Source: Parcubacteria bacterium DG_74_1
GTDB lineage: Bacteria; Patescibacteriota; Minisyncoccia; Minisyncoccales; DG-74-1
Reading direction: 5' to 3'
Length of the DNA stretch: 35,563 nt
NCBI GenBank assembly: GCA_001303125.1
Contig: LJNE01000002.1
Coordinates: 1-35,563 of the forward strand
The position numbers were made by a program, and so were the translations under genes. Shown piece by piece: positions 5,131-26,697 of the stretch (the stretch's first letter is position 1; each line of letters starts with the position of its first letter). The notes under the pieces are model-generated. The model worked only from the letters and a program-made list of their open reading frames with translations, searched no databases and was not told the origin of the DNA.

Positions 5131-7506
5131 TTATTTCTTAATTTTAGCCAAAGTTAAAATGGTTTTAATGACCGTGTCGGGGTTCAAGGAAATTGATTCA
5201 ATCCCCTCTTTCATTAAAAATTTGGCGAATTCGGGAAAATCACTTGGTGCCTGACCGCAGATACCTATTCTTTTCTTCTTTTTCCTACAAATTTTTATCA
5301 CCTCGGCAATCATTTTTTTAATCGCTTCATTTCTCTCGTCAGAAATAGAGGCGATTTGAGCATTGTCCCGATCCACTCCTAAAGTTAATTGGGTCAAGTC
5401 ATTTGAACCGATGCTCATTTCGTCAAAAATCTCTAAAAACCTTTCGGCTAAAACAACATTAGAAGGGATTTCACACATCATACAGATCCTTAAACCGTCT
5501 TTTCCTCGTTCAATCCCTTTCTCTTTCATTAGCTTTAACACTTTTTCTCCTTCCTCTACTGTACGACAGAAAGGGACCTCGGGGATTATATTTTTTAATC
5601 CAAACTCCTCTCTGGCTTTTTTGATTGCTTGACATTCCATTTCAAAAGCGGGTTTAAATTTTTGATCGTAATATCTTGAAGCACCCCGCCAACCCATCAT
5701 TGGATTTGATTCCTCAGGTTCAAATAATTCTCCGCCAATGAGGGCTCTATATTCATTAGTTTTGAAATCCGAAAATCTGACAATGACCGGCTTTGGGTAA
5801 AAAGCAGCGGCTATTTGAGCGATCCCTTCGGCCAGTTTATCAATAAAATATTGATTTTTATCTTCGTAGCCAACGGTAATTTCTTCGATCCGGTTTTTAA
5901 GTTTTCCATCTTTTAAGGTTTTAAAATGATATAAAGCCAAGGGATGAATCCTGATTTTCTCCGCCAAGATAAATTCAATTCTGGCGAGACCCACTCCGTC
6001 ATTTGGCAAAAATGAAGTCTTGAATGCAATATCGGGAGCACCAATGTTAACCATTATTTTTGTTTTTAGGTTCGGAATCTTTTTTAAATTATATCTTTTA
6101 ACTTCAAAGGGGACTTTCCCTTCAAAGATTCTTCCGTTTAATCCCACCGTGCAATCTACGGTCACTTCCTGGCCACTTCTTAAAGTCCTTGTTGCTTCTT
6201 TTGTCCCCACTATTGCCGGTATACCTAACTCTCTTCCGATAATGGCGGCATGGCAGGTCTTTCCGCCTTCGTCGGTAACGATAGCCGAAGCAATTCTCAT
6301 AGCAGGAACCCAATCTGGGTCGGTCATTTTTGTCACCAAGACTTCTCCTTTTTTAAATTCTTCAATTTTAGAAACGTCGGCAATCACATGCACTTTTCCT
6401 TGACCAACTTTATTCCCAATGCTAATACCGGTTAAAACTGGCTTTTTTATTGTTTTTATTTTGTATTCTTCTAAAATTCTGGTCTCTGTCGGAGCATGAA
6501 CGGTCTCCGGTCTCGCCTGGACAATAAATAATTGACCTGTTTTTCCATCTTTGGCCCATTCAATGTCCTGAGGAAACTGATAATGTTTCTCAATTATCAC
6601 TGCCCATTTAGCTAGAGTCAGAACCTCTCCATCGGTTATAGAAAATCTCGCCTGGTCATTTTGAGAAACACTGACTTCTTTCAGCCCTCCAGTCTTTCCG
6701 TAAATATACTTTTTTGTTTTCCTCCCCAAATCCTTAATAATAATCGGCTTAAATCCTTTTTTCAGAGTAGGTTTGAAAACATAAAACTCATCGGGAGTAA
6801 TTTTCCCCTTAACAATCATCTCGCCAGCGCCAAAAATTGAGTTAATCAGAACAATATTGGGAAACCCTGTTTCGGTATCCAGAGTAAACATCACCCCCGA
6901 GGAAGATAGGTCACTTCTTACCATTTTCTGAACTCCCACAGAAAGGCCGAGCTTAAGATGAGAAAGTTTTTTTTCTTCACGATAGGCAATAGCCCTATCG
7001 GTAAAGGTAGAAGCAATAGATTCTTTTATCGCTTCTAACAAATTATTTTCTCCAGAAATATTTAGATAAGTCTCGAATTGACCGGCAAAAGAAGCGCCAA
7101 GTGTGTCCTCGGCAACCCCTGAAGTCCTCACCGCAACATCAGGATTTGAAACGTATTTCTTTCCCAGGTCTCGATAAGCATTAACTATCTCTTTCTTTAA
7201 ATCATCCGGAAATTCTCCTTTTAGGATGGCACTGCGAGATAGTTCCCCAGTTCTTTGCAGGCTTTTAATACTTCTGGGATTAAATTTTTGAAAAATATTT
7301 TTTAACTTTTTATCAATTCTATTACTCTTTAAATAATGCCAGTAAGCCGCGGTAGTCAAGGCAAAACCATCTGAAAGGTTAACGCCTTTCTTGATTAACT
7401 TAGAGAACATCTCCCCTAGAGAAGCATTCTTTCCGCCAACTAAAAGAATGTCTCTTTTTGAGATTTCTTTAAACCAAAGGATATATTTTTGTGACTTTTT
7501 AGTCAT
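5131..7506 (-). CDS. ppsA: Phosphoenolpyruvate synthase
   Basis: N-terminal ATP-grasp (VGGKNASLGEMF), swivelling His domain (GGKTCHAAIIGRELGIPAIVG), C-terminal PEP-utilising barrel (SIGSNDLTQLTLGVDRD). Confidence 0.96.
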   Translation of the reverse strand: MTKKSQKYILWFKEISKRDILLVGGKNASLGEMFSKLIKKGVNLSDGFALTTAAYWHYLKSNRIDKKLKNIFQKFNPRSIKSLQRTGELSRSAILKGEFPDDLKKEIVNAYRDLGKKYVSNPDVAVRTSGVAEDTLGASFAGQFETYLNISGENNLLEAIKESIASTFTDRAIAYREEKKLSHLKLGLSVGVQKMVRSDLSSSGVMFTLDTETGFPNIVLINSIFGAGEMIVKGKITPDEFYVFKPTLKKGFKPIIIKDLGRKTKKYIYGKTGGLKEVSVSQNDQARFSITDGEVLTLAKWAVIIEKHYQFPQDIEWAKDGKTGQLFIVQARPETVHAPTETRILEEYKIKTIKKPVLTGISIGNKVGQGKVHVIADVSKIEEFKKGEVLVTKMTDPDWVPAMRIASAIVTDEGGKTCHAAIIGRELGIPAIVGTKEATRTLRSGQEVTVDCTVGLNGRIFEGKVPFEVKRYNLKKIPNLKTKIMVNIGAPDIAFKTSFLPNDGVGLARIEFILAEKIRIHPLALYHFKTLKDGKLKNRIEEITVGYEDKNQYFIDKLAEGIAQIAAAFYPKPVIVRFSDFKTNEYRALIGGELFEPEESNPMMGWRGASRYYDQKFKPAFEMECQAIKKAREEFGLKNIIPEVPFCRTVEEGEKVLKLMKEKGIERGKDGLRICMMCEIPSNVVLAERFLEIFDEMSIGSNDLTQLTLGVDRDNAQIASISDERNEAIKKMIAEVIKICRKKKKRIGICGQAPSDFPEFAKFLMKEGIESISLNPDTVIKTILTLAKIKK

Positions 7507-9427
7507 TTTTTATTTTTTGTTTAATTCCCTCTACGCTTTCGGGATTAGCTAAAGTGGATAAATCACCTAATTCCTCTCCTGTAAATAATCTTTTTAGAAT
7601 TCTCCTCATAATTTTCCCGCTCCTTGTCTTTGGCAGGTCCTCAACCAAATAAATTTCTTTTGGCAAAGCAATGGGACCTATCTCTTTTCTAATCTGTTCC
7701 ACCACTTCTTTTTTAAAATGTTCTAGATTCTCTGCCCCTGTATAACAAATAAAGGCGACGGGTACTTCTCCTTTAATTTCGTCTGGGATTCCCACTACTG
7801 CTGACTCAGAAATTTCTGGGTGTTTATTTATGGCATTCTCTAGCTCTCCGGTGGCAACCCTGTGGCCAGCCACTTTAATCACGTCATCAACTCTGCCAAT
7901 AATGCGAATTAAGCCGTTCTCGTCTTTAAATGCTCCGTCAGAAGTAAAATAAGTCTCTTTACTATACTGGCTCCAATAAGTTTCTAAATACTTTTCCGGA
8001 TTTTTGTAAACTCCCCTCAATAACCCTGGCGTAAAGGGAGGCAATAAGACTAAGTTCCCTTCTTTTCCTGGTAGACAACTTTTTCCTTCATCGTCAAAAA
8101 TATCAAATTTTGTCCCCGGAAATGGTAAACCAGTAAAGGTTGGCTTAAAGGGACCAATTCCCGGCAAAGAGGTAATTAAAATTCCGCCTGTTTCTGTTTG
8201 CCACCAGGTATCAACAAGAGGACATCTCCCCTTCCCGACCTCATTAAAATACCAGAGCCAGGCCCCTTCATCAATCGGTTCCCCAACCGAACCCAATAAT
8301 CTTAATGTTTCAAATTTATAATCTTTAAGAATTTCTGTTCCGTATCTCTCAAACATCCTGATGGCCGTGGGGGCAGTATAAAAAATTGTTACTTTATGCT
8401 CTTCAATAATTTTAGCCCATCTGTCTGGCGCTGGAAAATCAGGAGCACCTTCAAAAATTAAGGTTGTTATTCCGTTGAGCAATGGGCTGTAGCAAGTATA
8501 AGAATGGCCCGTAATCCACCCCAAGTCAGAAGTACACCATAATATGTCCTCGGGATGAAAATCAAAAATCCATTTTCCTGTCCAGTATGCCTGAACCGTA
8601 TAGCCGCCGCAGTTATGAACAATTTGTTTTGGCCGGCCGGTACTTCCGCTAGTTGCTAATAAGAATAGTAAATCTTCTGAATCCATTATTTCTGCCTCGC
8701 ATTTAGTGTTTTCATCTTTAATTAATTCATCCCACCATAAATCTTTTCCTTTCTGCCAGGGGATTTCATTTACTGCTCGTTTTACGACAATTACCCTCTC
8801 AATTTTTGTTCCTTTAATTCCCTCGTCAGCACCTTGCTTTAAATTAATAATTTTCCCCCTTCTATAGTAGCCGTCGGCTGTTATTAAAATTTTAGCTTCT
8901 GAACCCTGTAACCGTATTTGTAAGGCAGAAGAGGAATAAGCTGAAAAAACTACCGTATGCACGGCCCCAATTCTAGCACAGGCAAGCATAGAAATTATTA
9001 TTTCTGGAACCATGGGTAAATATATTCCTACCCTATCTCCTTTTTTAATGCCTAACTTTTTAAGAGCATTGGCAAACTGAGAGACCAGAGAGAAAAGGTC
9101 CTGATAAGTGAAAATTCTGGAGGGCTGATCAGTCGGCTCAGGCTCCCAAATTAAAGCTGTTTTATCTTTTATTTTGTCCCAACCCTGAGGGCTACCTTCA
9201 AAAATACTTGAGGTAATGTTTATCTTTCCGCCCAAAAACCATTTAAAATAAGGAGGAGTGTGTTCAAATGGCTTTTGCCATTTTTTGAACCAAAAAAGCT
9301 CCCTGGCTAATTTCTCCCAAAATTTAACTGGGTTTTTTTCGCCTTCTTTGTAAATTTTTCTATCGTTTACCCAAGCCTTATTTTTGAACCTTGTGGTTGG
9401 ATAATATAAACCTCCTTTCTTAAGCAT
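7499..9427 (-). CDS. acsA: Acetyl-CoA synthetase (AMP-forming)
   Basis: LLATSGSTGRPKQIVH, WWQTETGGI, GRVDDVIKVAGHRVATGELE, TRSGKIMRR; overlaps ppsA start by 8 bp. Confidence 0.94.
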   Translation of the reverse strand: MLKKGGLYYPTTRFKNKAWVNDRKIYKEGEKNPVKFWEKLARELFWFKKWQKPFEHTPPYFKWFLGGKINITSSIFEGSPQGWDKIKDKTALIWEPEPTDQPSRIFTYQDLFSLVSQFANALKKLGIKKGDRVGIYLPMVPEIIISMLACARIGAVHTVVFSAYSSSALQIRLQGSEAKILITADGYYRRGKIINLKQGADEGIKGTKIERVIVVKRAVNEIPWQKGKDLWWDELIKDENTKCEAEIMDSEDLLFLLATSGSTGRPKQIVHNCGGYTVQAYWTGKWIFDFHPEDILWCTSDLGWITGHSYTCYSPLLNGITTLIFEGAPDFPAPDRWAKIIEEHKVTIFYTAPTAIRMFERYGTEILKDYKFETLRLLGSVGEPIDEGAWLWYFNEVGKGRCPLVDTWWQTETGGILITSLPGIGPFKPTFTGLPFPGTKFDIFDDEGKSCLPGKEGNLVLLPPFTPGLLRGVYKNPEKYLETYWSQYSKETYFTSDGAFKDENGLIRIIGRVDDVIKVAGHRVATGELENAINKHPEISESAVVGIPDEIKGEVPVAFICYTGAENLEHFKKEVVEQIRKEIGPIALPKEIYLVEDLPKTRSGKIMRRILKRLFTGEELGDLSTLANPESVEGIKQKIKND

Positions 9428-14229: not shown

Positions 14230-14925
14230 TTAAATAGATCTTTCTTTCTGACTTGGAGCAAAAATAATAAAAATAATGATACCTCCAAAAATAAATAATA
14301 TATCCCTCCAAATAGAGCCAATATTTAAAAAAACAAAATCGAACAAAGCGCCTATAATCACAATTAAAGAAAGGATAATAAACCCTAAAGTTTTTCTTTT
14401 AGTATAAACATCTTGGGCTTTCTGAAATTGCTCAAAAAAAATGAAAATTGCCGGAATAAAAGCAATAAGAAATAAAGAAGCTCGTAAATTTATAGCAAAA
14501 CTAGAAACTATTGGAGCACCCCAATTTATCGCTCCGCTCGGTTCTAAAAAAGGGTTAAATGGAATAAAAATAGTTAAATAAGTAGAAATCATTCCTAAAA
14601 GAAAAACTGGAATAAATCCTAACCAGGGAGAAACTTTAGGTGAAAATTTAACATAAACCGAGAAATAAGCCATTATTGAGAAAGCAAGAGCCTGCAAAAA
14701 TCCTCCAAAATTTACTGTGAATCTCAAAAAAAATAAATTTTTAACAAAAAACAATCCGCCTATCGCTTTAATAAGAACGAATAGCCAAAAAATTGAAAAG
14801 ATATAGAATAAAAGTTTGGAAACAATATCTTTCTCTTTTTTCCAATACTGGAAAACCCGATAGACAAGAGAGCCTATAGCAAAAGAAAGGATTAAATAAG
14901 CGAATCCGGTGATGGAATAACTCAT
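14230..14925 (-). CDS. Multi-TM membrane protein, copy 1 of a tandem paralogous trio
   Basis: About 7 hydrophobic segments; MSYSITGFAYL, FQYWKKEKDIVSKL, VSPWLGFIPV, FNPFLEPSGAINWG. Confidence 0.8.
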   Translation of the reverse strand: MSYSITGFAYLILSFAIGSLVYRVFQYWKKEKDIVSKLLFYIFSIFWLFVLIKAIGGLFFVKNLFFLRFTVNFGGFLQALAFSIMAYFSVYVKFSPKVSPWLGFIPVFLLGMISTYLTIFIPFNPFLEPSGAINWGAPIVSSFAINLRASLFLIAFIPAIFIFFEQFQKAQDVYTKRKTLGFIILSLIVIIGALFDFVFLNIGSIWRDILFIFGGIIIFIIFAPSQKERSI

Positions 14926-15677
14926 AATTTATTTGAGGTTTTAATATAATAAGAAGATGGTCCAGACAAGGGGCGGGGCATGGTTAAAATAAGTGTAATG
15001 AAAAGAATGATACTACAAACAATAAGAGCTATATCTCTCCCTATGGCACCTAAGTTAAAAGTATTAATAAATAAAAAATCAAAAGAGGCGACTATCAGTA
15101 TAAATAAAAAGGCGAGACCTAATCCAAGAGATTTTGCCCTGATATAAGGGTCTTCTGAATTTTTAAATTGTGAAAGAAAAATAATAGATAACGGGATAAT
15201 AGTAATGAGTGAAAGAAAAAGTCTCAGAGACGATACAAAAACGGCCATAGAACTAGATGGAAAGCCCCAATTAATAGCTCCACTCGCTTCAAGAAAGGGA
15301 TTAAATTGAAGTAAAACGACACTCAAAATTGCGGCAATTAGTCCTAAAACAAGAACCGGAATAAAACCAAGCCAAGGAGAAATCTTAGGAAATTTAAGAT
15401 AAATAATATGATAAGCTATAACGGCGAAAATAAGCGCTTGGATAAAAACGCCGACCTCTATTTTTTTTGATAAAACAGGAGGAAGAGGGCTATCGGCAAA
15501 AAATAATCCACTAATTGCGTCAATTAAAACAAACAATCCAAAAAGGCTGGCAATATAAAGCGCCTGTTTAGAAACAGCAGATTTTTCTTTCTTCCAGTAC
15601 TGAAAAAGGCGATAAATTAAAAATCCCACAGGAAAAAGTAAAACTAAATAAGCAACACCAGTAATAGAATAACTCAT
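14922..15677 (-). CDS. Multi-TM membrane protein, copy 2 of a tandem paralogous trio
   Basis: MSYSITGVAYL, FQYWKKEKSAVSK, ISPWLGFIPV, FNPFLEASGAINWG; 4 bp overlap with copy 1. Confidence 0.8.
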   Translation of the reverse strand: MSYSITGVAYLVLLFPVGFLIYRLFQYWKKEKSAVSKQALYIASLFGLFVLIDAISGLFFADSPLPPVLSKKIEVGVFIQALIFAVIAYHIIYLKFPKISPWLGFIPVLVLGLIAAILSVVLLQFNPFLEASGAINWGFPSSSMAVFVSSLRLFLSLITIIPLSIIFLSQFKNSEDPYIRAKSLGLGLAFLFILIVASFDFLFINTFNLGAIGRDIALIVCSIILFITLILTMPRPLSGPSSYYIKTSNKL

Positions 15678-16420
15678 AGTTTACTTGAGCTTTTAATATA
15701 ATAAGAAGATGACCCAGGCAAGGGACGGGGCATAGTTAAAATAAGTGTAATGAAAAGAATGATACTAATAGCAATATACTCTATATCTCGCCATATTGGG
15801 TCTACCTTTAAAAAGCTAACGAGTAAAAAATCAAGTAACATACTCGATGATGCAATTATAATGGAGAGGGAAAATCCAAACGCTTTCCTTTTAGCATAAA
15901 GGTCTTTTGAGATTTTAAACTGTTGGAAAAGAATAATAATGATTGGAGTAAGAACAAGCAGGGCTAAAAAGATTCTCAGTATTGCCATAGCAAAAACAAA
16001 TGGGCCAGAGGAAAAACCCCAGTTTATCGCTCCGCTTTCCTCAAGATGTGGGTTAAATGAAGTCATCACTGTTAGGACGAAGGCAATCAACCCTAAGATA
16101 AGAACTGGGATAAGACCAAGCCAAGGAGAAACTCTGGGAAATTTAAGATAAACAATCAAATAAGCTAAAATGGCAAAAATAAAGGCCTCAACGGCAGCAG
16201 CAGCATCTATAGTCATTTCTAAAAAAGTAGGATTGGTGGAAAAAAATAATCCCCCAATCGCTTTAATCAGGGTAAATATTTCAACCAAAATAACAGCATA
16301 AAGCCAGAGTTTAGAAACAAGGTCTTTTTCTCTTTTCCAGTATTGAAAGAAGCGGTAAACTAAAAAACCGAAGGCGAGAAAAAAAGTTAAATAAGCGAAT
16401 CCGGTAATGGAGTAATTCAT
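15674..16420 (-). CDS. Multi-TM membrane protein, copy 3 of a tandem paralogous trio
   Basis: MNYSITGFAYL, FQYWKREKDLVSKL, VSPWLGLIPV, FNPHLEESGAINWG; 4 bp overlap with copy 2. Confidence 0.8.
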   Translation of the reverse strand: MNYSITGFAYLTFFLAFGFLVYRFFQYWKREKDLVSKLWLYAVILVEIFTLIKAIGGLFFSTNPTFLEMTIDAAAAVEAFIFAILAYLIVYLKFPRVSPWLGLIPVLILGLIAFVLTVMTSFNPHLEESGAINWGFSSGPFVFAMAILRIFLALLVLTPIIIILFQQFKISKDLYAKRKAFGFSLSIIIASSSMLLDFLLVSFLKVDPIWRDIEYIAISIILFITLILTMPRPLPGSSSYYIKSSSKL

Positions 16421-20540: not shown

Positions 20541-20549
20541 TGCTGCTGA

Positions 20550-20580
20550 GGGGTATTAGATTATATTCGGACCTGTTTTA
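20550..20580 (-). repeat. Spacer repeat core, copy 1 (upstream of ftsZ promoter)
   Basis: Minus strand TAAAACAGGTCCGAATATAATCTAATACCCC. Confidence 0.7.
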
Positions 20581-20607
20581 TGTATAAGCTAAAAAGGAAT
20601 AAAGAAA

Positions 20608-20812
20608 TTATTTTAAAAATATTAAAGCCAGGCCTCCTAAAATAAGGAAGATTCCAAGCCCCTTAAACATGATTTTTAAGTTATTTTCTGTATTCTGTAT
20701 AAAGTTTCTGGTAAAATGTCGCTGCCCCTGGCGCAATATTCTTATTATTGAAAAAGAATATCAACCCCAGACCAAGAAACAGTATACCGATGATTGTTTT
20801 TTCTATATCCAT
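20608..20812 (-). pseudogene. Small membrane protein split by a frameshift (43 aa + 20 aa ORFs)
   Basis: ORF 20681-20812 MDIEKTIIGILFLGLGLIFFFNNKNIAPGAATFYQKLYTEYRK*, then in another frame ...ENNLKIMFKGLGIFLILGGLALIFLK* ending at 20608. Confidence 0.5.
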
Positions 20813-20825
20813 TTAATTTTTTACT

Positions 20826-21140
20826 TTATAAAAACCAGAATACTAATATATTAGCTACAAGTAGGATAAATGCTGTAATTAGCATTACTTTTATGATTTT
20901 ACTTTGCCTTGGTGTAGGTCTTTCTGTTTTTCTTGCCAGCACAACCCATATCGGGATAAAAAGTATCAAAGGAAAAACAGCGCCGCTAGCTACCTCTTGA
21001 CCACTAATCGAGTGGCCCCCTTGTAACAATATAATAATTATACCACCTGCTAAAACTACCAGCAGAATAACCATTAAAGCAATGACGAATTGCCAAAAGG
21101 TTTTACTATAATTTTCTGATCTCTTTAGTTCTTGCTCCAT
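20826..21140 (-). CDS. Small membrane protein, unknown function
   Basis: 104 aa, three hydrophobic segments; ATG 8 nt downstream of TAGAAT. Confidence 0.65.
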   Translation of the reverse strand: MEQELKRSENYSKTFWQFVIALMVILLVVLAGGIIIILLQGGHSISGQEVASGAVFPLILFIPIWVVLARKTERPTPRQSKIIKVMLITAFILLVANILVFWFL

Positions 21141-21148
21141 ATTTTTTT

Positions 21149-21225
21149 ATTCTACCACAGAATTACCCAAATGGGCAGTAATGCACTAGCTGGAGGGTAT
21201 TGGACTACGTTCGAACCTGTTTAAA
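21149..21225 (-). repeat. Spacer repeat copy 2 (core + hairpin + TGTGGTAGAAT)
   Basis: Minus strand AAACAGGTTCGAACGTAGTCCAATACCCTCCAGCTAGTGCATTACTGCCCATTTGGGTAATTCTGTGGTAGAAT. Confidence 0.8.
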
Positions 21226-21237
21226 AATATTCTTATC

Positions 21238-22128
21238 TTAAATTACAAGAATTATTATGCCAATCAAAACAGCGACAACACCTAACAACTTCTGTTTGTT
21301 CAAATCAGCGCCAAGCAAAGGAACGCTTAATAAAGTAACAAATAAAATTTGAGTATTTTTAATCGATTCGTGGTATCCAGGATTGGGAGAGATTGCTATT
21401 CCCTTTATACCAAGAATATTAGCTATAAAAGAAAACGTTGCCGCTAAAAAGACTATTGGCAGAAAACTCTTTAATTTAGGTCTATCCTTTAAGTAATTTT
21501 TCATATCTTTACGGCTTAATATAGCAAAGGCTAAAAAATTAAAACCGAAAACAAAAAGCGCTATCTCTTGAGGAGAAAAGCCTATTTGACTGACTTTCTT
21601 TATTCCCAACACCGCGACAGTAAAACTTAAAGCCCCTATAATAGCTAGCACATCCCATCTTAAAAATCGTCTTTCGGTTCGTTGAATAGAAAAAATATCT
21701 TTTTTTTCTATAATAAGTGCGGCTATACCACCAATTATAAAAAACATTCCCATTAATTTTATTAAACTAAATGAACTTCCAAAAATTAAAAAAGCAATCA
21801 CGCTTATTAAAAAAACATTACTGCTTTTAATCGTTCCAGCAAAACCAGGATTTGGCGCCTTTATCACTGCTGTAAAATCTGCCCAATTACCAATAACAGC
21901 AAAAATACTAACAATTGTCATTATGATTATAAAATCCAGGAAAAATTCTGAATCCCAAATGGTATTAATCGTCCCAATATTTATAACTAAAAAACCTAAA
22001 AAAGCAAAAAGAAAAAGAAAAAGCAATATTTGTTTTGAAGAAAAACCTTTGTTTCCCAGATATCTCGTACACAAAACCATTCCCGTAAATGAAAACGCTG
22101 TTAAAATTGAGTATAGATACCAGGACAT
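21238..22128 (-). CDS. EamA/DMT-family transporter-like membrane protein
   Basis: 296 aa, about 10 TM segments, two EamA-like halves. Confidence 0.8.
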   Translation of the reverse strand: MSWYLYSILTAFSFTGMVLCTRYLGNKGFSSKQILLFLFLFAFLGFLVINIGTINTIWDSEFFLDFIIIMTIVSIFAVIGNWADFTAVIKAPNPGFAGTIKSSNVFLISVIAFLIFGSSFSLIKLMGMFFIIGGIAALIIEKKDIFSIQRTERRFLRWDVLAIIGALSFTVAVLGIKKVSQIGFSPQEIALFVFGFNFLAFAILSRKDMKNYLKDRPKLKSFLPIVFLAATFSFIANILGIKGIAISPNPGYHESIKNTQILFVTLLSVPLLGADLNKQKLLGVVAVLIGIIILVI

Positions 22129-22134
22129 ATCCTC

Positions 22135-22213
22135 ATCCTACCAAAAAACCGCCTTCTTGGGAAAACGGCTGAAGCTAGCTAGGAGTATTGGACCCTGTTC
22201 GGACCTGTTTTAT
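22135..22213 (-). repeat. Spacer repeat copy 3 (core + terminator hairpin + TTTTTTGGTAGGAT)
   Basis: Minus strand AAAACAGGTCCGAACAGGGTCCAATACTCC...GCCGTTTTCCCAAGAAGGCGGTTTTTTGGTAGGAT. Confidence 0.8.
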
Positions 22214-22265
22214 GGAGAATTATGGCTTTAGGGTGCCAGTTATAGAATAATATAAGTTCGTCGTT

Positions 22266-22336
22266 CTAAACAAAAAACCAGCTAATAAGCTGATTTCTTG
22301 TCCTAAATAAACCTCTTTCGACGCTTACTTGGGGAC
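22266..22336 (-). repeat. Repeat B copy 1 containing a rho-independent terminator
   Basis: Minus strand CCCCAAGTAAGCGTC...ACAAGAAATCAGCTTATTAGCTGGTTTTTTG; near-identical to 24421-24494. Confidence 0.7.
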
Positions 22337-22361
22337 AGGGGGGAAGAAGATTTTTAGTTCC

Positions 22362-22694
22362 TTAATAGTGTAGGTCCCCAACTCGACGTTGGGTGTTAAA
22401 ATAGATCTTGCAACTTTTCCAATCAACCTGCTCTAGGAACATAGGATTTGGTTCTCGGGAAAGCTGGCCCATACCGACGATTCCGCCTGTAATAAACCAA
22501 GATTCAGATTCAATAGAATCATCTGTAGCCGTCACCCCTTTCACTCTAATACGGAAGATATTCTTCATGACATGGGTAAATGGGGGTGGCTCAACTATGA
22601 AGTCTACTTCTCTTCCCTTAAAGAGACCCCACATTAGGTCCAATTTTGATGGTCCCTTCACGACCCTAACAGTACTCTTTAACTTCGATGTCAT
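22362..22694 (-). CDS. Orphan 110 aa protein, unknown function
   Basis: ORF with AGGAGG four nt before ATG and an upstream TTGACA/TATAAT promoter. Confidence 0.65.
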   Translation of the reverse strand: MTSKLKSTVRVVKGPSKLDLMWGLFKGREVDFIVEPPPFTHVMKNIFRIRVKGVTATDDSIESESWFITGGIVGMGQLSREPNPMFLEQVDWKSCKIYFNTQRRVGDLHY

Positions 22695-22880
22695 ACGACC
22701 TCCTGCTAATATTTGGTAGTTCAGGCACTACCTCACCGTTCGTCACCTGACGCACCTAAAGCCATACAGCTCCAGGGATTGTTTTCTTCTTCCCCCACGG
22801 TAATATTATTTTAAGGAACCGAAATAGACATAATTTCTTCTGTCCATTTCGCTTCCTTTTTTTACTCCCTCCTGGCACTT
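22695..22880 (-). ncRNA. Candidate structured 5' leader of the 110 aa ORF
   Basis: Hairpin GGAA-GC-GAAAUGGACA...UGUCUAUUUC-GG-UUCC (22815-22856); hairpin GGTAGT-GCCTGA-ACTACC (22715-22732) whose loop can pair with 22745-22750. Confidence 0.45.
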
Positions 22881-22882
22881 AT

Positions 22883-22912
22883 ATTATATAACACAAAATA
22901 TCAATTTGTCAA
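22883..22912 (-). promoter_or_regulatory. Sigma70 promoter TTGACA-18-TATAAT
   Basis: Minus strand -35 at 22907-22912, -10 at 22883-22888. Confidence 0.75.
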
Positions 22913-22917
22913 TAAGA

Positions 22918-23000
22918 CATTCTACCAAAAAACCGCCCATAAGACGATTCTTTGGCTTTTGTAAACTGGGAGTATTGGACTCTGTTCGGACCTGTTTGAT
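22918..23000 (-). repeat. Spacer repeat copy 4
   Basis: Minus strand CAAACAGGTCCGAACAGAGTCCAATACTCCCAGTTTACAAAAGCCAAAGAATCGTCTTATGGGCGGTTTTTTGGTAGAAT. Confidence 0.8.
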
Positions 23001-23078
23001 GAAGAATCATGGGGGTTAGGATGCCAGCTTTGGGACGATGTTAGAACCTGGTTGACGGAAAGCTTAACTTAATTATAC

Positions 23079-23534
23079 CTACAGCCATCTCCTTACATGA
23101 TTTTTATATTCTCCATACTCTCTTCCAAAAATCCTTTCAAGATTTCTTTCTTCAAAAGGAATAAATAATAATCCCATCAAAAATACGAAGGCGATCGGGA
23201 CGGCAAACGTAACCAAGGTTCCATGGTTAATAGCTATACCCAATAGTATTGCAGTAAATCCTAAATATTGTGGGTTTCTGCTAATACGGAAAGGACCTGA
23301 GGTTATTAGCTGGGTAGGATTTTCATATGGCTTGACTGTGGTTTTCTTTTTCTTTAATAACATATCAGCCCAGATATTTATAACTCCACCAAAAATAATA
23401 AAGGCAAAACCTAAATAGGTATATGGAGGAAAAATTATTTTCTTAATAGGGAAAATAAAATGTAATCCTATTGATAATAATAAGAGTATTATAAAATAGG
23501 TCGGCGGGAGAGGCTTCTTCTTCGGCTTTTCCAT
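23079..23534 (-). CDS. Isoprenylcysteine carboxylmethyltransferase/phospholipid methyltransferase-like membrane protein
   Basis: Several TMs, TSGPFRISRNPQYLGFTAILLGIAI...FIPFEERNLERIFGREYGEYKNHVRRWL. Confidence 0.85.
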   Translation of the reverse strand: MEKPKKKPLPPTYFIILLLLSIGLHFIFPIKKIIFPPYTYLGFAFIIFGGVINIWADMLLKKKKTTVKPYENPTQLITSGPFRISRNPQYLGFTAILLGIAINHGTLVTFAVPIAFVFLMGLLFIPFEERNLERIFGREYGEYKNHVRRWL

Positions 23535-23545
23535 ATAATATTTAT

Positions 23546-23728
23546 CTATTTTTCGAAAAAAAGAGAGATTGCGTATGCAAAGAATCCTACTCCAAAACCG
23601 ATAAATAGACCTGCGGGTATATTATTCATCGCGAAGCCGATTCCAAAACCAAGAAACAAGCCGGCAGGAATAAAAATCGCCCCCTTTTCTTTTTTCCATT
23701 TTTTCCTTTCAAATTTTTGCTCTTCCAT
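23546..23728 (-). CDS. Small Gly-rich membrane protein with internal repeat
   Basis: 60 aa; FIPAGLFLGFGIGFAMNNIPAGLFIGFGVGFF. Confidence 0.6.
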   Translation of the reverse strand: MEEQKFERKKWKKEKGAIFIPAGLFLGFGIGFAMNNIPAGLFIGFGVGFFAYAISLFFEK

Positions 23729-23763
23729 ATTTTTATAATGATTTATTTTTAGGCCTTTGTCTT

Positions 23764-23840
23764 ATTCTACCAAAAAACCGCCCAAATGGGCAGTGATGCA
23801 CTAACTGGGGGTATTGGACTATGTTCGGACCTGTTTTATA
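23764..23840 (-). repeat. Spacer repeat copy 5
   Basis: Minus strand TAAAACAGGTCCGAACATAGTCCAATACCCCCAGTTAGTGCATCACTGCCCATTTGGGCGGTTTTTTGGTAGAAT. Confidence 0.8.
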
Positions 23841-23841
23841 T

Positions 23842-23866
23842 AAAAAACACCTGTTTATTAACAGGT
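23842..23866 (-). terminator. Rho-independent terminator after the small membrane ORF
   Basis: Minus strand ACCTGTTAATAAACAGGTGTTTTTT. Confidence 0.75.
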
Positions 23867-23904
23867 AAATACAAGAAAATGGGGGTTGGGACGGGGTTGA
23901 ATAG

Positions 23905-24141
23905 TTAAGGATTCTTCCCCGTCCCGGTGTGCTTTGCTGGGAGAAACATCGATTTCCTAGTGCGATATATCCATATGAGATATCCCACCAAAATAATAGA
24001 GAAGATTAATACCCAGCCAAGGTTCCCTGCCATCGCCTCTTCTATGATTCTTCTAATAAGGAAAGTTATGGCGAAGGCTCTTATAAAGAGAATAGCGTGC
24101 TCCACTTCTGTCACCTCCTTCTCGTACCTGCCGAATTTCAC
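23905..24141 (-). CDS. Small membrane protein, unknown; likely true start GTG at 24105
   Basis: AAGGAGG lies 8 nt before the GTG at 24105; track start (GTG at 24141) has no SD. One or two hydrophobic segments. Confidence 0.55.
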   Translation of the reverse strand: MKFGRYEKEVTEVEHAILFIRAFAITFLIRRIIEEAMAGNLGWVLIFSIILVGYLIWIYRTRKSMFLPAKHTGTGKNP

Positions 24142-24303
24142 GGTCAGGGCTTATAGAGCACACGGGTTTTCAAAGGACTGGAATAGAAATAATTTTTTAT
24201 ATCCATTCCGCCCCTCTGAAATAAATAACAGGCATCCTAGGAGAGAGTTGCCTGTTGACTCAAATATCAAGATATATTCAGCTTTACTTACTCTCTCCTT
24301 TAT
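24142..24303 (-). ncRNA. Candidate structured 5' leader with H-type pseudoknot
   Basis: Minus strand GGAGAGAGT (24298-24290) complements ACTCTCTCC (24248-24240), which lies in the loop of AACAGGCA/TGCCTGTT (24256-24249 with 24234-24227). Second hairpin GGAAUGGA...UCUAUUCC at 24180-24209. Confidence 0.5.
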
Positions 24304-24309
24304 ATCTCT

Positions 24310-24337
24310 ATTATAGCATATTCATAGAATTTGTCAA
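24310..24337 (-). promoter_or_regulatory. Sigma70 promoter TTGACA-16-TATAAT
   Basis: Minus strand -35 at 24332-24337, -10 at 24310-24315. Confidence 0.75.
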
Positions 24338-24342
24338 TAGAT

Positions 24343-24412
24343 ACAAAAAACCACCTTCTTTTAAAGGCTAATAACCAACGGGGGGATTGGACTATGTTCG
24401 AACCTGTTTTTT
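24343..24412 (-). repeat. Spacer repeat copy 6
   Basis: Minus strand AAAAACAGGTTCGAACATAGTCCAATCCCCCCGTTGGTTATTAGCCTTTAAAAGAAGGTGGTTTTTTGTAT. Confidence 0.8.
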
Positions 24413-24420
24413 AGCTTAAA

Positions 24421-24494
24421 TAAACAAAAAAACCAGTTAATAAGCTGATTTCCTGTCCCAAATAAATCTTCTTTCTAGACACTTACTTGGGGGG
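24421..24494 (-). repeat. Repeat B copy 2 containing a rho-independent terminator
   Basis: Minus strand CCCCCAAGTAAGTGTC...AGGAAATCAGCTTATTAACTGGTTTTTTTG; matches 22266-22336. Confidence 0.7.
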
Positions 24495-24495
24495 T

Positions 24496-24537
24496 GGTAG
24501 CGGGAATTAGAAGTGTTCAACTTCTTTACCCGCTACC
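24496..24537 (-). terminator. Strong 3' hairpin directly after the 255 aa ORF
   Basis: GGTAGCGGG/CCCGCTACC (9 bp) plus AGAAGT/ACTTCT (6 bp) inverted repeat, no immediate T-run. Confidence 0.55.
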
Positions 24538-24550
24538 TTAGTAGGAAGAT

Positions 24551-25318
24551 CTACATAGAAGAACTCACGAAGCTCTCTGGAGGGACGCTGACGTCGGTAA
24601 TCTGTCGAGCAGTATAGAAAATTCTCCCCTCGGCTCCGAAGAGACTATCTTCGTTCCGAAGCACAAACTCATCGCCGAATACAAGCTCGCCCCATTTAAT
24701 CTCAGGATCAGTCTCTTCCGAGACATGAGTCTTGTTTCCCTCATGAAACGAACGAGAACCGAGAGTTGATTTTGCATCTCGGTACCCAGCACCCTGCTGA
24801 CCTGTTACGGCTGGTCTCACTATCGCTTGACCCTTTTGGGGATCAATAATAAGAGCGATGAAAGTTGGCTCGCCGTTGCACCCGATCGTCAATTGATCGC
24901 CTTTGCGAAACTGATCTATCTTGAGGCTACTTACTGCAACCGCTTTTGGTTTGTCCAGAAGTAGCAGTTTGCTTCCCGTGGCCTCACTTATTGTAAGACC
25001 TTTTGGAAGCCAGACGGGGACGAGAGCACACTCGGTATTTATGGGACAATTTTTTTCAAGCCCCAGGAACTCACGGGTTTCCGAAGGATTTAAAGGTATT
25101 CCCACGATGCACCCTCTGCTCCGAGCATTCGCAGTGATTTCCTCTACTTCTTTGTAACCCGTAGAGACTATGACTGCTCCATACCAATTTCCAGCCACCC
25201 TGCAAGGTTTCTGTTTCCGCAATAATATCATTGCTTCACTTATCGCGAAAATACAGAGAGCAAGCAGTCCTACAGCAACAAAGATACCAGCTATACCTAG
25301 ATGCATGTAACTATCCAT
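24551..25318 (-). CDS. Orphan 255 aa protein, N-terminal TM anchor plus soluble domain
   Basis: AGGAGG upstream of ATG, TTGACA promoter; no family recognised. Confidence 0.65.
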   Translation of the reverse strand: MDSYMHLGIAGIFVAVGLLALCIFAISEAMILLRKQKPCRVAGNWYGAVIVSTGYKEVEEITANARSRGCIVGIPLNPSETREFLGLEKNCPINTECALVPVWLPKGLTISEATGSKLLLLDKPKAVAVSSLKIDQFRKGDQLTIGCNGEPTFIALIIDPQKGQAIVRPAVTGQQGAGYRDAKSTLGSRSFHEGNKTHVSEETDPEIKWGELVFGDEFVLRNEDSLFGAEGRIFYTARQITDVSVPPESFVSSSM

Positions 25319-25413
25319 TTTTCTTTCTTTCCTCCTTTTCGTTTGTATTCTAGTCTATCTTCTATATGAAATGGCTTTCCATGAAGCCACGTTGTATAAG
25401 TACTAGTAATAAA

Positions 25414-25442
25414 ATAATACCATAAAATATGGTATTTGTCAA
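25414..25442 (-). promoter_or_regulatory. TTGACA-17-TATTAT promoter with a perfect palindrome filling the spacer
   Basis: Minus strand -35 25437-25442, -10 25414-25419, palindrome AATACCATA-nnn-TATGGTATT at 25416-25436. Confidence 0.7.
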
Positions 25443-25532
25443 TAATATGCTGGCATCCTCGGTCTCGGACCCGCGTTTTAAGAGAAAAATCGAGGATTCT
25501 TGACCGTGTCTCATAACGCGGCTCGGTCGGGA

Positions 25533-25970
25533 CTATACTTTAATTTTTGGAAAGTATAAACGAGCTTCTAAAAACTTAGTGAGATTCTTCATTTCTTCTT
25601 CGCTCATTGGTTCATTATGATAAGTTCCTGGAGCAAGTGGAAGTTGTACTGGCGCACCCCAAGTTTTTCCTTTTCGTCTGGCGTAAATATGAACATGAAA
25701 TCTCGGAGTGTTGTCAGGTAAAAGTCCCCAATTCCCATTGGCCTGTAAATTAAACCAAGGGGCCAGCTTCAGCTCTTCCATAATCTGAGCCACTCTTGCA
25801 GCGACCTTAAATGTTTCTGCACATAAATCTGGATTAGCCCAAGCAGATGGAACATTTGTTTTAGGATAAACTACGACATGCAAACCTTCCTCAGGTGGAA
25901 TATGGGGGTTAATCGGAGTAAATATTTCAAATTTTTCATTAGACCATAAAGGTAATTTTTCTTCTTGCAT
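25533..25970 (-). CDS. HIT-like (histidine triad) protein
   Basis: 145 aa, GLHVVVYPKTNVPSAW and RFHVHIYARRKG (third triad His replaced by Tyr). Confidence 0.65.
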   Translation of the reverse strand: MQEEKLPLWSNEKFEIFTPINPHIPPEEGLHVVVYPKTNVPSAWANPDLCAETFKVAARVAQIMEELKLAPWFNLQANGNWGLLPDNTPRFHVHIYARRKGKTWGAPVQLPLAPGTYHNEPMSEEEMKNLTKFLEARLYFPKIKV

Positions 25971-25978
25971 ATTATTTT

Positions 25979-26012
25979 ATTTTACCAAAAAAGCGCCATT
26001 TTGGCGATTTCC
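25979..26012 (-). repeat. Hairpin half of the spacer repeat, without the core, upstream of the HIT gene
   Basis: Minus strand GGAAATCGCCAAAATGGCGCTTTTTTGGTAAAAT. Confidence 0.65.
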
Positions 26013-26102
26013 AACGCGTCTCGTCCCTCGATACCGAGCACAAGACTCCTTATGGGAATCCAGAGAGCTTTGAGCTTGCGCCCCTACGTTAGTAGAAGGA
26101 GG

Positions 26103-26468
26103 TTATGACGTTCCGACTGCCTCGGAATCTGCCACCTTTTTCTCTGGGTGTTCCCAGAGAATCTCTTCGGTAAAGCCCCACTCCCAGATAACTGCACCGT
26201 TTGGGTCATTGTTATCTTTGAGTCCAGGAGTAGACCACCAATATGGTCCAGTGGGACTGAGTGACTGCGCCGTTATCTTAACGACTTTCCCTGCCTCCAA
26301 TCCACTGTGTGGATTCTTACCTGGCTTATAGTAGAGTTCCAGACTAGCTTTTACGAATCTCTGAACATCGTTCCCCGCCACTATATATGTGGTCGTATCT
26401 CCTCCTTCCCAATAAAGAGTAATCTGTTGTAGGGGCCTCTTAAGAAGTCTTTCCAATAATGAAGTCAT
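26103..26468 (-). CDS. Orphan ~121 aa protein, unknown function
   Basis: Start at internal Met (MTSLLERLLKRPLQQ) after AGGAGGTGAAAGG; the track start at 26507 overlaps the -10 box. Confidence 0.6.
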   Translation of the reverse strand: MTSLLERLLKRPLQQITLYWEGGDTTTYIVAGNDVQRFVKASLELYYKPGKNPHSGLEAGKVVKITAQSLSPTGPYWWSTPGLKDNNDPNGAVIWEWGFTEEILWEHPEKKVADSEAVGTS

Positions 26469-26498
26469 CCTTTCACCTCCTATTCTATTTCTGCTTAG

Positions 26499-26527
26499 AT
26501 TATACACTCGTTTGTTAAATTTGTCAA
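26499..26527 (-). promoter_or_regulatory. Sigma70 promoter TTGACA-17-TATAAT
   Basis: Minus strand -35 26522-26527, -10 26499-26504. Confidence 0.8.
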
Positions 26528-26532
26528 TAATC

Positions 26533-26563
26533 CCACAAAAAACCGCCCATAAGGCGATTCTTT
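26533..26563 (-). terminator. Terminator downstream of tRNA-Gln
   Basis: Minus strand CAAAGAATCGCCTTATGGGCGGTTTTTTG. Confidence 0.75.
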
Positions 26564-26571
26564 GAAAATAA

Positions 26572-26642
26572 CTGCGGGGCTAGGACTCGAACCTAGATAC
26601 CATGATCCAGAGTCATGTATCCTACCATTAGATGACCCCGCA
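26572..26642 (-). tRNA. tRNA-Gln (anticodon CUG)
   Basis: TGCGGGG...CATGA-CTCTGGA-TCATG...CTAGG-TTCGAGT-CCTAG-CCCCGCA-G cloverleaf; CCA not encoded. Confidence 0.9.
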
Positions 26643-26697
26643 ATACGTCCCCATTTTCTTAAATAGGATTACATTAAGAGGGCCATGGAGAAAAAAG

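Follow-up and report, generated by a model that had tools for sequence, protein, structure and literature searches.

Which process assembled the series of small same-strand genes between ftsZ and a tRNA-Gln gene, and what the sequence element recurring among them does, are the questions raised by the stretch analyzed here, a window of 35,563 nt from contig LJNE01000002.1 of Parcubacteria bacterium DG_74_1 (assembly GCA_001303125.1, genome label G000). An earlier note on this DNA had described accessory transcription units, each preceded by a diverged repeat of ~75 nt, and had likened them to a cassette or genomic-island architecture. Having searched the organism's own genome (585 kb) and 100 genomes of its order, we consider it likely that small integrative cassettes, most of them with a single gene, accreted one behind another on tRNA 3' ends and formed, between tRNA-Gln and ftsZ, an array similar to integrons without being one.

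A repeat search recovered the six core copies reported previously as 34-nt stretches with 85 to 100% identity to the reference copy (cores 1, 2, and 4 to 7 in Table 1), together with the two hairpins at 25984 and 26533; a seventh copy, core 3, had been missed. With a 74-nt query, the six window sites gave E-values of 2e-33 to 1e-5 in the organism's own genome, and the only other comparable cores were found at C10:7057 and C10:7345. The supposed single element of ~75 nt, however, is composed of two modules. The specific module is a core of ~33 nt, AAACAGGTTCTAACATCGTCCAnnCCCCG[C/G]AGC, whereas the general module, a GC hairpin plus TTTTTTGGTAGAAT, is a widespread terminator/-10 motif; matches to the hairpin with TTTTTTGGTAGAATA occur without the core in most of the 100 relatives. 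The latter combination looks like a terminator joined to a -10 box, the -10-like box being positioned few bases ahead of the start codon. On the minus strand, units are ordered as hairpin plus -10 box, gene, and core. Specifically, a core follows the stop codon of the EamA gene (21238) by ~16 nt and that of an EamA-like gene on C10 by 2 nt. Since the core thus lies near a stop codon, and the hairpin with its -10 box before the next start, the core closes the upstream unit and does not open the next. At the head of the array, hairpin 26533 comes after tRNA-Gln, and the tRNA 3' end occupies the place of a core. A probable degenerate junction precedes hairpin 25984, with a tail at approximately 26045-26053 followed by GTGCTCGGTATCGAGGGACGAGACGCG, and its right-arm motif matches the right arms past tRNA-Asn, tRNA-Gln, and cores in relatives. 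As a separate observation, the placement of TTTTTTGGTAGAATA a few bases before the ATG (window 21149-26559 and many relatives, widespread in the order) suggests leaderless transcripts.

In relatives, the core often forms the right end of a longer site of ~115 nt (101-133 nt in ten aligned sequences), which starts with the left end AAATAGTGAGTAGCAGGGTGGGGTAA and contains ~50 variable nt in between. The left end can itself provide the stop codon, with which the site overlaps, and to the right of GGAGC or GCAGC the sequence differs from copy to copy. The ten full-length elements have conserved ends and show no consistent fold or end-to-end pairing; a core with a stable RNA fold was therefore dropped as a candidate. 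A function as part of a protein was dropped as well, as inspection revealed stop codons and no codon-like variation. Besides the tRNA, the interval contains no Rfam match.

Presence of the element in other genomes had been set beforehand as a test. A sequence model (R1) of the core, built from 28 source sequences that match by construction, detected 364 copies in 67 of the 100 genomes of the order, commonly in arrays and on one strand within each array. A search for an exact 21-base pattern in ~85,000 species returned 60 stretches, nearly all of them in Patescibacteria records or metagenome-assembled genomes named 'bacterium'; two came from other named groups (L096 and L097), L096 lying in apparently coding sequence. 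Viral spread was rejected, two IMG/VR hits being uninformative: L142 is a chance match inside a phage gene, and L141 lies at a contig edge. The latter (14708-14726) is an exact core AAACAGGTTCTAACATCGTCC on a contig otherwise carrying phage genes, and may be an attachment site or an assembly chimera.

The tRNA-Gln gene as anchor, the tRNA-like tail of the core, and the hairpin as a separate module had all gone unseen in the earlier note. The window tRNA-Gln was identified with ARAGORN and RF00005, and relatives whose loci extend beyond ftsX have the order ftsX - tRNA-Gln as well; in the nearest relative, G001, the contig stops ~1 kb past ftsX, and no tRNA was found on that piece. In at least ten genomes (G000, G019, G056, G065, G046, G086, G087, G017, G032, and G035), a core is located at most 5 kb downstream of ftsX-tRNA-Gln on the same strand, the number expected from core density being ~1.3 by a rough estimate. 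A tRNA-Asn gene after dnaG-rpoD represents a second hotspot, heading arrays in four genomes (G010, G080, G092, and G017), and a few other tRNAs likewise have arrays downstream. Of the 16 core clusters in three genomes for which tRNAs were listed, 6 have a tRNA upstream on the same strand at a distance of up to 2.5 kb, versus 0.87 expected (P=3e-4). Two further observations concern array heads. A third hotspot was noticed after tRNA-Arg-tRNA-His in two families (L025 9461-9609, core at 8935; L070 5181-5333, cores at 6279-8096), with core tails, GGGGACC, that differ from tRNA-His. An apparent tRNA-Asn gene heading an array, missed by ARAGORN, contains a Group I intron (L073 5308-5616; RF00028, 88.7 bits).

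The tails of the cores resemble the tRNA ends downstream of which they are found. When 136 cores were compared with 111 tRNA 3' segments, a pool enriched in Gln by the choice of ftsX loci for retrieval, tail plus flank matched a tRNA segment for 83 cores but for only 5 of 136 shuffled controls, and the best hits of 75 of the 83 were Asn, Gln, or His. Individual loci illustrate this likeness: the cores of G085 end in GTCCAAGCCCCGCAGC, identical over 16 nt to the tRNA-Gln 3' end of G019; tRNA-Gln of G032 and its three cores all end in the rare variant GCAAC; and in G086, 40 or more identical nt come after tRNA-Gln (..CCCGCAG) and after the first core (..TTCCCAG). In the window, an alignment between the flank past tRNA-Gln and the one to the right of core 22964 has a score of 53.

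The units themselves appear to be exchanged. In G085, two left-flank types pair independently with three or more types of right flank, and the switch falls between CCCC and GCAGC; this is the pattern that site-specific recombination in the tail would be expected to leave, as inferred from static sequence. A single-gene stretch shared by G080 and G017, members of different families, is 95.0% identical over 1399 bp; the dnaG and rpoD genes of those contigs reach 69% and 73%, respectively. G080 also shares a unit with G016 that is 90.5% identical over 1077 bp. Homology in such high-identity pairs is confined to the gene and a short upstream stretch, and in the L069/L072 pair begins just past a core. 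At the tRNA-Gln site, position is conserved and contents are not: the 160 open reading frames (ORFs) located up to 6 kb downstream of tRNA-Gln in 21 genomes include only 10 cross-genome pairs. Gene order is hence not identical among relatives, the content of the same interval being almost wholly different, and the proposed cassette or island architecture is supported.

To account for these data, we propose that each unit comprises a terminator hairpin, a -10-like promoter, a gene, and an attachment site. The 33-nt core would constitute the 3' part of this site and combine an element-borne arm, AAACAGGTTCTAACATCGTCC, with a tail, nnCCCCG[C/G]AGC, that would mimic a tRNA acceptor 3' end. The tRNA 3' end would be the primary docking site, with the role of attI in integrons, and every insertion would leave a tail-bearing junction as the target for a further unit. 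The junctions presumably arise through site-specific recombination with a crossover within the tail, between CCCC and GCAGC, and the units would be moved by a recombinase acting in trans. Candidate enzymes are the single Xer-like tyrosine recombinase of the cell or CcrB-like large serine recombinases provided by helper islands.

Several observations weigh against this explanation. According to the ORF list and Pfam, there is no recombinase among the array units of the window, and the sole tyrosine recombinase of the genome (PF00589; C10:8714-9670, on a different contig from the window array) is Xer-like and scores below the cut-offs for XerC, XerD, and integron integrases (95.8 versus 265 for the last). 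Ten of the 16 core clusters are more than 2.5 kb from any upstream same-strand tRNA, several of them at contig ends. Shared terminator motifs add to the match scores of tail plus flank, the locus's own adjacent tRNA ranked first of 111 in only 4 of 14 loci with the best of several cores taken, and in G019, G046, G035, and G010 the match between tail and adjacent tRNA was no better than with shuffled cores. Some high-identity unit pairs end before the core. The comparison, moreover, covered one genome per species.

As to the enzyme, the tyrosine recombinase gene adjoins the small C10 array; in relatives, PF00589 genes are mostly far from arrays, and adjacency was dropped as evidence for a linked integrase. 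A 29-nt inverted repeat, TAATATTGTGCGACATTTAATCAGGGTAA, 90% complementary, brackets this gene (L023 8641-8669 and 10196-10224), with further diverged copies at C10:128 and C10:9802, and could be a recombination site. At the ftsX-tRNA-Gln site of five relatives (G021, G039, G063, G028, and G071), genes for large serine recombinases, CcrB/XisF-like where scanned, head restriction-modification islands. The 3' ends of their ORFs overlap the tRNA in G039, G063, and G028, and a core is located downstream in G021 and G039. They show that the tRNA-Gln end serves as an integration site in the order. No PF00239 match was obtained in the array-rich genomes G000, G065, G085, G083, G017, G080, G010, G016, G032, and G092, and a resident serine recombinase was dropped from consideration because of its absence from most array-rich genomes. 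With no recombinase in the window array and array-rich genomes usually devoid of serine recombinases, mobilization of units in trans is proposed as the most likely mechanism. A more specific formulation, which we advance only tentatively, is a distinct, Parcubacteria-specific integron-like class, in which the 3' ends of tRNA-Gln and tRNA-Asn would be the landing site, the ~115-nt site with its tRNA-mimicking tail would be the cassette site, and the single Xer-type recombinase of the cell would swap single-gene cassettes within and between families.

The serine recombinases also invite a different and, in our view, unlikely interpretation, namely, that cores are scars of larger serine-recombinase islands at tRNA-Gln 3' ends, decayed to attR-like fragments and stray genes, with no single-gene cassettes in circulation. 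The five genes at ftsX-tRNA-Gln, the three that overlap the tRNA, the downstream cores, and the resemblance to CcrB/XisF fit such a history, yet the ten array-rich genomes lack a PF00239 match, units regularly consist of one gene and a junction, and single units are 90-95% identical between families. Improbable, too, is a shuffling of genes at tRNA hotspots by homologous recombination between short repeats during DNA uptake, with no dedicated recombinase. The flanking terminators are repeated as well, and the shared 20-33 nt come close to the minimum length needed for homologous recombination; however, the dedicated conserved arm, the tRNA-like tail, and the serine recombinases at the same tRNA site would be left unexplained. 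We attach very little weight to the core being an RNA element in 3' untranslated regions, with a role in regulation or processing, that was copied along with genes. Its strong conservation and its location right after stop codons and ahead of the terminator would suit such a role, but the flank types on either side assort independently, the tail is similar to tRNA 3' ends and changes along with them, cores are largely confined to accessory arrays at tRNA hotspots, and neither the Rfam search nor the ten full-length elements pointed to a structured RNA. The least credible possibility is a true integron, or a cluster of attC sites lacking integron integrases (CALIN), with highly diverged attC sites: single genes are indeed each closed at the stop codon by a ~100-133-nt site in one orientation, but the tyrosine recombinase falls far below the integron-integrase cut-off, no RYYYAAC...GTTRRRY pair was seen at the site ends, which show no consistent pairing, arrays begin at tRNA genes, and cassettes have their own terminator and -10 box. 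A canonical integron was rejected because neither an integron integrase nor recognizable attC ends were seen.

Turning to known systems, no description of integrons, cassettes, or tRNA-linked islands of this kind was found in the literature on Patescibacteria and the candidate phyla radiation, most subscription journals and preprints being outside the search. The closest known kind are additive islands with recurring tRNA 3'-end repeats (PMC10872708), which likewise sit at one fixed tRNA locus, contain repeated copies of the tRNA 3' end, and vary in their accessory content, mostly of unknown function. Here, insertion downstream of a tRNA 3' end (though not for all clusters), recurring 3'-end copies (strongest in G086 and G032), and variable content were found, whereas an element-borne integrase was absent from the window units, with serine recombinases in some relatives only. 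In contrast to the additive islands, the present repeat combines a conserved arm with the tail, occurs across dozens of genera and at several tRNA loci, and delimits mostly single genes that carry a promoter and a terminator of their own. Integrons share the same-strand arrays of single-gene cassettes with a ~100-nt site in one orientation at each 3' end and, in the proposed model, mobilization in trans; they differ in that neither an array-linked gene for an integron integrase (IntI) nor canonical attC ends were seen here, a tRNA takes the place of attI, and the promoter is cassette-borne. Tycheposons, reportedly described in Prochlorococcus, resemble the array in their tRNA-anchored modular cargo exchange in streamlined genomes. 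They differ in carrying a tyrosine recombinase, for which no counterpart was found inside the units beside the tRNA, PF00589 genes being mostly far from arrays, and in spanning 4-200 kb. Tycheposons have also been reported with tRNA and xerD (PMC10872708). Islands at tRNA and transfer-messenger RNA genes detected by Islander have ends marked by a regenerated target and by a displaced tRNA fragment (PMC4383910). The regenerated target and the displaced fragment have parallels here, but the present units measure ~0.5-1.5 kb, lack an integrase, and accreted serially. Staphylococcal cassette chromosome (SCC) elements use Ccr serine recombinases and are inserted as tandem composites at a single gene's 3' end. 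Tandem insertion at one gene's 3' end and the CcrB-like enzymes at tRNA-Gln in relatives recall SCC; neither G000, which lacks a PF00239 match, nor most array-rich relatives have a serine recombinase, however. As the integrase was missing and attC ends were not found, we file the array not with integrons but with the tRNA-anchored additive islands, as a variant whose granularity is integron-like.

The features of the array are compiled in Table 1. Among the gene assignments made in the earlier note, the EamA transporter and the methyltransferase were borne out by Pfam, the HIT protein received a weak match below the Pfam cut-off, and the orphan proteins stood as such, the remaining ORFs having no convincing match in the Pfam scan.

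Table 1. Features of the array between tRNA-Gln and ftsZ (window positions) and large serine recombinase genes in relatives
Feature	Position	Strand	Evidence or remark
tRNA-Gln(CTG)	26571..26643	-	Array head, proposed primary attachment site; ARAGORN, RF00005 59.1 bits
Right flank past tRNA 3' end	26529..26566	-	Hairpin CGCCTTATGGGCGGTTTTTT, then TTGACA...TATAAT-like promoter for unit 1; sequence
Unit 1, orphan ORF, 134 aa	26103..26507	-	No Pfam match
Probable degenerate junction	26014..26053	-	Tail-like ATAAGGAGT and right-arm motif CTTGTGCTCGGTATCGAGGGACGAGACGCG; sequence
Hairpin with TTTTTTGGTAAAAT, terminator and -10-like	25979..26009	-	Repeat search
Unit 2, HIT-like protein, 145 aa	25533..25970	-	Pfam HIT E=0.02, under cut-off
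Unit 3, orphan ORF, 255 aa	24551..25318	-	No Pfam match
Core 1	24380..24413	-	Repeat search; model 27.8 bits
Unit 4, small membrane-like ORF, 78 aa	23905..24141	-	Sub-threshold Pfam hits only
Core 2	23807..23840	-	Repeat search; model 28.9 bits
Hairpin and TTTTTTGGTAGAAT	23764..23794	-	Repeat search
Unit 5, 60-aa ORF and PEMT-family methyltransferase, 151 aa	23079..23728	-	PF04191 1.4e-17
Core 3, AACCAGGTTCTAACATCGTCC	23024..23053	-	Model 23.8 bits; new
Core 4	22968..23001	-	Repeat search; model 24.1 bits
Hairpin and TTTTTTGGTAGAAT	22919..22949	-	Repeat search
Unit 6, orphan ORF, 110 aa	22362..22694	-	No Pfam match
Core 5	22181..22214	-	Repeat search; model 18.7 bits
Hairpin and TTTTTTGGTAGGAT	22132..22160	-	Repeat search
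Unit 7, EamA-family transporter	21238..22128	-	PF00892 3.6e-15
Core 6	21193..21226	-	Repeat search; model 26.6 bits
Hairpin and GGTAGAAT	21149..21180	-	Repeat search
Unit 8, membrane ORF, 104 aa	20826..21140	-	78% DNA identity over 332 bp to unit in array L064 (G083, another family)
Core 7, final junction ahead of ftsZ	20549..20582	-	Repeat search; model 15.7 bits
Large serine recombinases	L162 2133-3449, L183 1259-2884, L184 9401-10891, L185 1130-2575, L186 13931-15244		At ftsX-tRNA-Gln

Two observations outside the array may be added. On L023 (C10 of G000), a second intergenic repeat, TCAAAATTTAGCCCRAAGTT, occurs at 140-172, 686-718, 1493-1525, 2127-2159, 5533-5565, and 6120-6152, where it separates small genes (GNAT, HD, and SGNH hydrolase by eye); it is present in 15 of the 100 relatives, clustered in G014 and G019, and is possibly a second cassette-type array. 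In the window, three tandem paralogous membrane proteins are encoded at 14230-16420, with 66-77% DNA identity over parts.

Little is understood of how Patescibacteria, ultra-small and poor in genes, acquire accessory genes. A sequence-defined junction that recurs across an order offers direct access to this question: it marks the borders of cassettes, allows the accessory pool to be cataloged by means of a simple profile, and opens the search for the recombinase to testing. It further suggests that cassettes can come to be stacked in an integron-like manner on tRNA genes in the absence of an integron.

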